64,000 nt of DNA from Halorussus halophilus (lineage in GTDB: Archaea; Halobacteriota; Halobacteria; Halobacteriales; Haladaptataceae). The translations under genes were made by a program, and so were the position numbers. Below are positions 3,697-5,719 of the stretch, piece after piece (position 1 is the stretch's first letter; the number at the start of each line of letters is the position of its first letter). The DNA is taken from positions 558,001 through 622,000 of the forward strand of contig NZ_CP044523.1 of the NCBI RefSeq assembly GCF_008831545.1, given 5' to 3'. The notes beneath the pieces are model-generated. The model did not search any database. It saw only the letters and a program-made list of their open reading frames with translations, and was not told the origin of the DNA.

Positions 3697-3832
3697 ACCC
3701 CGCCCTTCGGGCCGCGGACCTTAAAATCCTCACCTCTGCAACAGCTATGCTCTAGTTTGGCAACACGTGTCAGGGGTGTATCGTCGTCCGAAATGCCCAG
3801 CACACTTTACCGAGACGCTCCAAGACGACAGT

Positions 3833-4447
3833 ATGCACTCTGAGGACATTCCCATTCCCGGCGCGCGCGACGTGCGCGCGACACTCGATTCCCCTGAGAA
3901 CGAAGATGCGAACACGATTGTAGTGGCTTGCCCGCCGCACCCACAGCACCGCGGCCACCGCGGAGACGCGCGCCTGAAAGCGGTGAGCGAGTACCTGTGT
4001 GACCACGGTATCGCCTGCCTGCGCTTCGACTACGGTGACTGGGACGAGGGGTACGGCGAGCGCGAAGACGCCCGCAATGCCCTGCGCTGGGCGCACGAGC
4101 ACTACGACCGTGTCGGCATCTTCGGGTTCAGTTTCGGCGGCGCGATTGCGACGCTCGCCGCCGCGAGCGTCGAATCGCCGCCGGAGGTGGTGTCGCTATT
4201 GGCTCCGGCCTCGAAGTTGGCCGACGATTTGGACGCCGCGGCGGTTTTGGAAGACATCGAGAGTCCAGTGCAGGTGCTCTACGGAACGCGGGACACGACT
4301 GCGGAGTGGGAGCCGTTAGTCGAGCGCGCGAAGGAGTTGGGACACGAAACTGTGGAGATGAGCGCGGACCACTTCTTCATCGGTCAGCACGAAAAGGTGG
4401 CTGACGCGGTGGGTGGGTTTCTGGTCGGAGAACTCGGCGAGCGATAG
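3833..4447 (+). CDS. Alpha/beta hydrolase (dienelactone-hydrolase-like)
   Basis: 204 residues from ATG 3833; an earlier ATG at 3767 gives a basic, Cys-containing extension unlike the rest and was rejected. The fold signature is clear: FDYGDWDEG, nucleophile elbow GFSFGG with Ser100, likely acid Asp154 (GTRD) and His180 (SADHFFIG). This Ser-Asp-His order is that of the alpha/beta hydrolase superfamily, and the family resembles archaeal small hydrolases related to dienelactone hydrolase or KANL3/Tex30. Substrate unknown. It is a single gene with its own start region, divergent from pspA. Confidence 0.8.
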   Translation: MHSEDIPIPGARDVRATLDSPENEDANTIVVACPPHPQHRGHRGDARLKAVSEYLCDHGIACLRFDYGDWDEGYGEREDARNALRWAHEHYDRVGIFGFSFGGAIATLAAASVESPPEVVSLLAPASKLADDLDAAAVLEDIESPVQVLYGTRDTTAEWEPLVERAKELGHETVEMSADHFFIGQHEKVADAVGGFLVGELGER

Positions 4448-4618
4448 AAATATTTTGTTTGGTTGAGGGTCACGACCGTGGGAGAACTTGGCCAACTCTT
4501 GGGACTTGGAGTGGATCTGGCTCCAGTAGTACTTATACTCTTATCCGGAGAGCTGTCCTGAATCCAAGCGGCACGGAGACACGAAATCGTATTCTCAATT
4601 GCCTTGACGACAGTGGCG

Positions 4619-4833
4619 ATGGGTGCAGGTGTGACGCTGTACGAACGTGCAGGGATTTACATCAGCCCGGCGAATCGCCGGATGCTCTCTACGGTCATCG
4701 GTCTCTGCTTGCTCCTTTCGCTCGCAATCTTCGGTCGTGTGGTCGTTCGCGCTGTCAACTCCAACGACGGCCCCACCCCAAAGACGAACCCTACGAGGGT
4801 GGCGGTCAGACTTACCCTTGGGACGAAGAGTAA
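4619..4833 (+). CDS. Small single-span membrane protein split by a -1 frame change
   Basis: From ATG 4619 (a TTG at 4604 is an alternative) the reading frame gives MGAGVTLYERAGIY, a transmembrane helix starting at MLSTVIGLCLLLSLAIF and VNSNDGPTPK. In this frame the protein would continue with an uncharacteristic basic tail to 4861. In the -1 frame the tail reads DEPYEGG-GQTYPWDEE and stops at 4831-4833, a typical acidic haloarchaeal C-terminus. The join falls on the heptamer C CCA AAG at 4777-4783. Either the gene lost one base and is broken, or it uses programmed -1 frameshifting. The coordinates given are for the joined product. Function unknown; it sits alone between the hydrolase and a multi-span membrane protein. 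Confidence 0.5.
4777..4800 (+). other. Candidate -1 frameshift site: slippery heptamer plus stem-loop
   Basis: C4777 CCA AAG (to 4783), in phase with the upstream frame, fits the canonical X XXY YYZ slippery heptamer (X = C, Y = A, Z = G). Four nucleotides later ACCCT (4788-4792) pairs with AGGGT (4796-4800) around an ACG loop. Slipping back one base at Pro-Lys continues directly into the acidic tail frame. Confidence 0.4.
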
Positions 4834-4876
4834 GTTCCACGCAAAACCTATGACAGAGTGACACGATTTCCGAGTC

Positions 4877-5719
4877 ATGCGCCGTCTCGCTCGCCTCTCC
4901 ACTATCACAATCGCCCTTCTCGTCGGCGTCCTCCACGCCGCGGCACTCTTCAGCGTCGATTCGCACCTCGGCTATCCGGTCGAGACGTTCGGCACGACCG
5001 CGCTCGCCAGCGGGTCGTTCCTCGCGGGACTCGTCTTGCTCGGCGCGCTCCCGGTGTTCGTATCGCTTCGGCACCGACTGGTCGCGCCGACGTTGTTGTT
5101 CGTCCTCGGGGCAGTCGCGCCAGTCTACGCACAACTCACGGGTGCGCAGCCGGAGTTCGACTATCTCGGCGGTTTCCTCACCGTCGCCGGTGAGGTCCAC
5201 GTCTACCACTACGTTCGCTCGTGGTACGCGTGGTTGCTGGTGTATCTGCTCGCAGGCGTCGGCGAGTACGGCATACGGAACGCGGTTCGGTGGCTTCCCC
5301 CAGCGCGGCAGTTCGACGCGATTTCGGTGCCGACTGACCGCCGGACGGCGAGGATTCTGGGACTTCTCGTCGGCCTCGCGCACGCAATCGTCCTCGTCTG
5401 GTTCTCCACGCGCTGGCACTACTTTTCGGACCCCGGCGACTTGTACACGCTGTTGCCGTGGACGTTCGTGGGTTTGGTCGTCCTCGCGGGCGTGCCGACG
5501 CTCCTGTTGTTCGAGAAGCGTCTCGCCGCGCCGTTTCTTGCCTTTCTGTGGCTGCTGGACCGCGCCGTTCGGACCCAGATTCGGCCGATGCCAGACGACT
5601 CGCTCATCTTCTACTTCGTCCTCTGGTTCGTCTTCTTAGGTGTCGCCCTGCTGGCTGGGGGCGGCGAGTACGCCGTTCGAATCGCTGGGCGGCGACTCGG
5701 CTTGCAGAGTCGGTCGTAG
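4877..5719 (+). CDS. Multi-span membrane protein, function unknown
   Basis: 280 residues, start ATG 4877. About eight hydrophobic segments are visible, for example at about residues 9-26, 45-62, 68-87, 116-131, 160-180, 192-210, 215-228 and 243-262, separated by short polar loops (RHRLVAP, PTDRRTAR). The sequence looks like an internal duplication: both halves carry LLVYLLAGVGEYGIR or LGVALLAGGGEYAVR after similar hydrophobic blocks. No catalytic or transport motif is recognised. It stands alone between the split small gene and pyrG. Confidence 0.65.
   Translation: MRRLARLSTITIALLVGVLHAAALFSVDSHLGYPVETFGTTALASGSFLAGLVLLGALPVFVSLRHRLVAPTLLFVLGAVAPVYAQLTGAQPEFDYLGGFLTVAGEVHVYHYVRSWYAWLLVYLLAGVGEYGIRNAVRWLPPARQFDAISVPTDRRTARILGLLVGLAHAIVLVWFSTRWHYFSDPGDLYTLLPWTFVGLVVLAGVPTLLLFEKRLAAPFLAFLWLLDRAVRTQIRPMPDDSLIFYFVLWFVFLGVALLAGGGEYAVRIAGRRLGLQSRS

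Follow-up and report, generated by a model that had tools for sequence, protein, structure and literature searches.

In archaea, programmed -1 ribosomal frameshifting has a proven example in fucA1 of Saccharolobus (Sulfolobus) solfataricus, an otherwise undamaged gene with the heptamer A-AAA-AAT, whose full-length product has been detected; -1 frameshifting has also been reported in some haloarchaeal viruses (PMC8211752). The excerpts of that review on which we draw exclude G from the last position of the slippery heptamer XXXYYYZ and place the structure at a distance of 5-9 nt downstream. A second point of comparison is provided by disrupted prokaryotic genes, for which the excerpted text of Antonov et al. 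(2013; PMC3711429) regards singleton frame transitions as likely indel mutations or sequencing errors. Here, we analyzed a 64,000-nt stretch of the Halorussus halophilus genome (hereafter, the window), in which a preliminary description had identified a probable programmed -1 frameshift in a small membrane-protein gene. The locus resembles fucA1, as portrayed in PMC8211752, in that a heptamer is followed by a stem-loop and in that both genes have uninterrupted relatives; it differs from fucA1 in that its heptamer ends in G, a TGA interrupts the gene further upstream, and the relatives show a length difference of four bases. With the indel and pseudogene classes of PMC3711429, the locus shares a frame transition absent from its relatives and a further disabling stop, and nothing distinctive sets it apart from those classes as far as the excerpts describe them; the tail in the window is still identical at the protein level to that of one relative. 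Both lesions, as well as the intact relatives in synteny, are directly observed (Table 1). Judging from these sequences, the locus is very probably a decayed copy of a small haloarchaeal membrane-protein gene with a nonsense codon and a net loss of four bases. Ordinary decay is the most likely explanation because a premature stop and a shifted frame occur here, and the gene is in one piece in related species.

The gene had been taken to begin at TTG 4604, but the same zero frame reaches upstream to GTG 4478, interrupted by the TGA. This GTG, located 30 bases past the stop codon of a gene encoding an alpha/beta-hydrolase, is the probable start. Rereading of the coordinates and of both frames bore out the description of the downstream part, with the zero frame encoding membrane helices and ending in NSNDGPTPK and the -1 frame yielding the acidic tail. 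Past the TGA, the zero frame runs without a stop from 4562 to 4858. The frame of the tail contains no stop from 4459 to 4833, so that stop codons do not define the slip point; homology puts it between GPT and HPK. An independent start for the tail was considered and discarded, given that there is no start codon near the tail in that frame and that the open frame listed for it, from TTG 4459 onward, lacks a hydrophobic segment. In the hydrolase open reading frame, the start is probably set too early (3767-3835), as residue 19 of the query is the earliest position at which most alignments with congeners start, near an ATG at about 3833.

Table 1. Features of the small membrane-protein locus (positions in the window)
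Feature	Position	Strand	Basis or remark
Upstream hydrolase gene, alpha/beta-hydrolase fold	3767-4447	+	Pfam Peptidase_S15 and DLH above cut-off
20-mer spanning the hydrolase end and the AT-rich upstream region, with an exact match upstream of the G002 gene	4436-4455	+	Among 18 loci, found only in G000 (window genome) and G002
Probable GTG start and hydrophobic segment 1 (codons 7-23, 4496-4546)	4478-4558	+	Frame; post-hydrolase position and hydrophobic spacing match relatives
Lesion 1: codon 28 is an in-frame TGA, which separates hydrophobic segments 1 and 2	4559-4561	+	No such stop in the five relatives
Body with hydrophobic segments 2 (4586-4636) and 3 (4682-4732), zero frame	4562-4768	+	Segment 3 aligned to relatives
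Lesion 2: change of frame where GPT meets HPK, segment four bases shorter than in the five relatives	4769-4777	+	Multiple and frameshift-aware alignment
Conserved acidic tail HPKDEPYEGGGQTYPWDEE and stop (4831-4833), -1 frame	4774-4833	+	Homology; 0 amino acid differences from G016
Heptamer CCCAAAG, Pro-Lys codons of the conserved tail motif HPKD	4777-4783	+	Same heptamer inside the intact G002 frame
Zero-frame run-out with basic tail, without counterpart in the five relatives (acidic tail there)	4778-4861	+	Frame reading
Hairpin ACCCT-ACG-AGGGT, EPYEG codons	4788-4800	+	Identical letters in the intact G016 gene

The gene is present in 5 of the 17 congeners, namely, Halorussus ruber YC25 (G016; L037:1501-1860), G015, G004, G005, and G002. 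Alignment of the orthologues had been set beforehand as the test between recoding and mutation, and it points to mutation: in all five relatives, the body, GPTHPK, and the acidic tail share one continuous open frame, and the segment is four bases longer than in the window. In G015, G004, G016, and G005, the small gene directly follows the hydrolase gene, which was found in 18 of 18 Halorussus genomes; in G002, it is displaced by about 1.27 kb past the hydrolase, behind a 382-codon open frame. The 20-mer common to window 4436-4455 and the G002 locus (L086) is perhaps an insertion scar in G002. The H. ruber YC25 gene is like the window copy in having the same hydrolase upstream, three hydrophobic segments at nearly the same codons, an identical HPKDEPYEGGGQTYPW, and the same hairpin letters. 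Unlike the window copy, it consists of one continuous frame with no internal stop, and its body sequence is very different.

No tail match was detected at the locus in the remaining 12 congeners, and in 5 of these (G001, G007, G009, G011, and G012), pyrG (CTP synthase) lies within 430 bases after the hydrolase gene. Given its absence from 12 of 17 congeners, the gene is dispensable. The next gene in the window (4877-5719) encodes a 280-residue probable membrane protein, which has no match at the corresponding locus of the 17 congeners; its counterparts at other places in Halorussus are all weak (34% identity at best, in G012), so the locus was remodelled in the window's lineage. In G015, a gene for a trypsin-like serine protease with a PDZ domain (L078:2026-3270, minus strand) lies between the small gene and pyrG; by eye, similar protease-like frames occupy the same place in G004, G005, G017, G014, G008, and G010. 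The protease gene is missing at the window locus, and its nearest relatives elsewhere in the window's genome are 38-48% identical. In a tree of three neighbouring proteins, in which the G002 row comprised just 205 compared positions, the window's lineage has the second longest terminal branch of 18, and its placement beside G013 has a support of only 0.507.

Homology searches delineate a small family. A DNA search yielded matches in 5 of 59 genomes, the window's own included, and in G016 and G005 it recovered the tail without the body; the matches in G014 and G055 were short, lay in other contexts, and were dropped. The intact H. ruber protein, used as the query, gave matches at E ≤ 0.1 in 13 of 99 genomes; those in G016, G015, G004, G005, and G002 and the one to the window's own tail are convincing, and the weak ones have E values of 0.017 and above; the single TGA flagged in the G005 match is the terminal stop of that gene. 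A 24-residue tail consensus matched 7 of 243 genomes at E ≤ 0.05: the window, the five relatives, and, weakly, G188 (E 0.044). The scan of named genomes returned H. ruber as the sole match, the plasmid search one weak Rhizobium match only, and the scan of viral contigs no match; in Pfam and NCBIfam, no family scored above cut-off for the small protein. In these searches, the family, characterized by a variable hydrophobic body and the strongly conserved acidic tail GPTHPKxEPYEGGGQxYPW (loci L037, L038, L039, L040, and L041), was found only in Halorussus, where it occurs in 6 of 18 genomes, with the broken copy included.

The alternative already allowed for in the preliminary description, that a frameshift mutation broke the gene, holds as far as mutation is concerned and needs correction in its details: four bases rather than one are missing, and the gene has been hit at least twice. 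Because the zero frame is already cut by the TGA, the frame break is a second lesion. In the multiple alignment, the window copy shows a four-base gap exactly at the GPT/HPK segment relative to all five relatives, and since this segment is four bases longer in each of them, the break is an indel in the window's lineage. Frameshift-aware alignment against a profile of four relatives joined hydrophobic segment 3 (zero frame) and the tail (-1 frame) free of gaps by a single shift at 4768. Further hidden frameshifts within the body were considered and set aside: the best frameshift-aware path needs one, although it aligns segment 3 and the tail only.

The two parts of the gene differ in their apparent constraint. 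The GC3 of the window body is 0.41 before the TGA and 0.66 after it, compared with a mean of 0.80 for the putative genes, which were preselected for GC3 above 0.68. The tail differs from that of H. ruber by 6 synonymous and 0 amino acid substitutions in 16 codons, and from those of G015, G004, G005, and G002 by 2, 2, 2, and 4 amino acids, respectively. The body is strongly diverged, with low GC3, while the tail still looks constrained. This preservation of the tail also fits its continued use and, to that extent, counts against decay; with no amino acid change relative to H. ruber, the frame break may be recent.

The similarity of the body to the relatives is at chance level, which leaves room for the suggestion that another membrane-protein segment was joined to the old tail, the frame break being the join. 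Searches with the window body as the query were unconvincing within Halorussus: in one, the top match in a second Halorussus genome had an E value of 0.059, and in another, no congener reached E 0.01. The read-through body weakly matched a few distant membrane proteins from other members of the order, most closely in G106 (E 3.9e-4, 32% identity). In the correct frame, comparison of the body with the relatives gave z scores of at most 1.94, and the frameshift-aware score of the upstream part was indistinguishable from codon shuffles (23.3 versus a mean of 23.5, with 26 of 60 shuffles reaching it). Orthology of the body therefore rests on place, length, and helix spacing, features that, together with the 20-mer shared with G002, fit a diverged family member and argue against recombination. 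The hydrophobic peaks fall at codons 7, 37, and 69 in the window, compared with 6, 39, and 68 in G016 and 6, 36, and 68 in G015, a spacing that recurs in 12 of 5000 shuffles and in none of the 382 99-residue, three-peak pieces cut from open frames in the window; the two other frames of the body contain no hydrophobic peak. The distance from the start to GPT is 97 codons in the window, 95-96 in relatives, and 84 in G002. The G002 gene, which has one hydrophobic peak only by the same measure, demonstrates that intact members can diverge this far: its body is nearly unrecognisable (z 1.2-3.0 against the other relatives) and its tail is clear, so that the family combines a variable body with a fixed tail. 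By its architecture (start position, length, and helix spacing), the window body fits a diverged member of the family. A recombinant origin is unlikely; it concerns the source of the body and overlaps with decay.

Two other explanations seem very unlikely to a similar degree. An error of sequencing or assembly, with the real gene intact, would agree with the position of the break within a C-rich stretch and with the protein sequence of the tail being unchanged relative to H. ruber. However, it would take two errors of different kinds, one creating a stop codon and the other a four-base difference; the composition of the body is unusual as well, and the assembly comprises 4 contigs and is 99.98% complete. 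The other possibility is a remodelled functional short gene, with translation restarting at TTG 4604 or ATG 4619 and the new basic tail in use, as the open zero frame past the TGA would permit. Against this stand the lack of a counterpart of the basic tail in the relatives and the loss of hydrophobic segment 1 and most of segment 2 that a restart would entail.

The original proposal was that of programmed -1 frameshifting at C CCA AAG with the aid of the hairpin, giving products with basic and acidic tails; it would now require a start below the TGA, at TTG 4604 or ATG 4619, for the zero frame to be intact up to the slip site. The in-phase heptamer and the hairpin are both present as described, and the tail is conserved. 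Moreover, in-phase XXXYYYZ heptamers are uncommon in the window, with 10 found in 50 putative genes (48,435 nt) picked by a length and composition filter, and none of these 10 is followed by a comparable 5-bp stem, so that the combination of heptamer and hairpin is not common, which counts against decay. The architecture is nevertheless classical only in part: the phase of the heptamer and the presence of the hairpin stand, but the heptamer ends in G, which the excerpts of PMC8211752 disallow, and only 4 nt separate it from the hairpin, short of the 5-9 nt given there; the hairpin folds no better than shuffles (z of -1.02 over 67 nt and of -0.64 over 30 nt). Both elements also serve as plain codons in intact genes, and the hairpin is lost in G015 and G004. 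The two-frame arrangement is not conserved, all five relatives being single-frame; because fucA1, according to the same source, also has uninterrupted relatives, this lowers the odds of recoding rather than excluding it. Taken together with the in-frame TGA and the four-base length difference, these observations make programmed frameshifting extremely unlikely here. A lineage-specific rescue, in which, after the four-base loss, -1 slippage at CCCAAAG and a start below the TGA would produce a shortened membrane protein with two tails, is just as scarcely credible.

Under the preferred reading, decay of a once intact gene, the gene belongs to a type that encodes three hydrophobic segments followed by the conserved acidic tail (GPTHPKDEPYEGGGQTYPWDDE-like) and that, in most relatives, directly follows the hydrolase gene and is read in one frame. 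The window copy has a nonsense codon between segments 1 and 2 and, where GPT meets HPK, a net deficit of four bases, which places the tail in the -1 frame; the C-rich context suggests a single slip within a short C-rich repeat as the cause of this loss. Translation from the normal start would end after 27 residues, and ribosomes starting later would run into a meaningless basic tail, so the gene is presumably non-functional. The frame break is probably recent, since the tail still looks constrained.

This case calls for caution, in that a textbook-looking slippery site with a hairpin can be plain motif codons exposed by an indel, and it is comparison with relatives, along with reading of the whole gene upstream, that settles such cases. 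If recoding were true after all, the locus would be a chromosomal haloarchaeal case, arisen as the rescue of an indel, and would join the very few archaeal ones. The analysis also brings out a small membrane-protein family with a variable body and a conserved acidic tail, found in 5 of 17 congeners.
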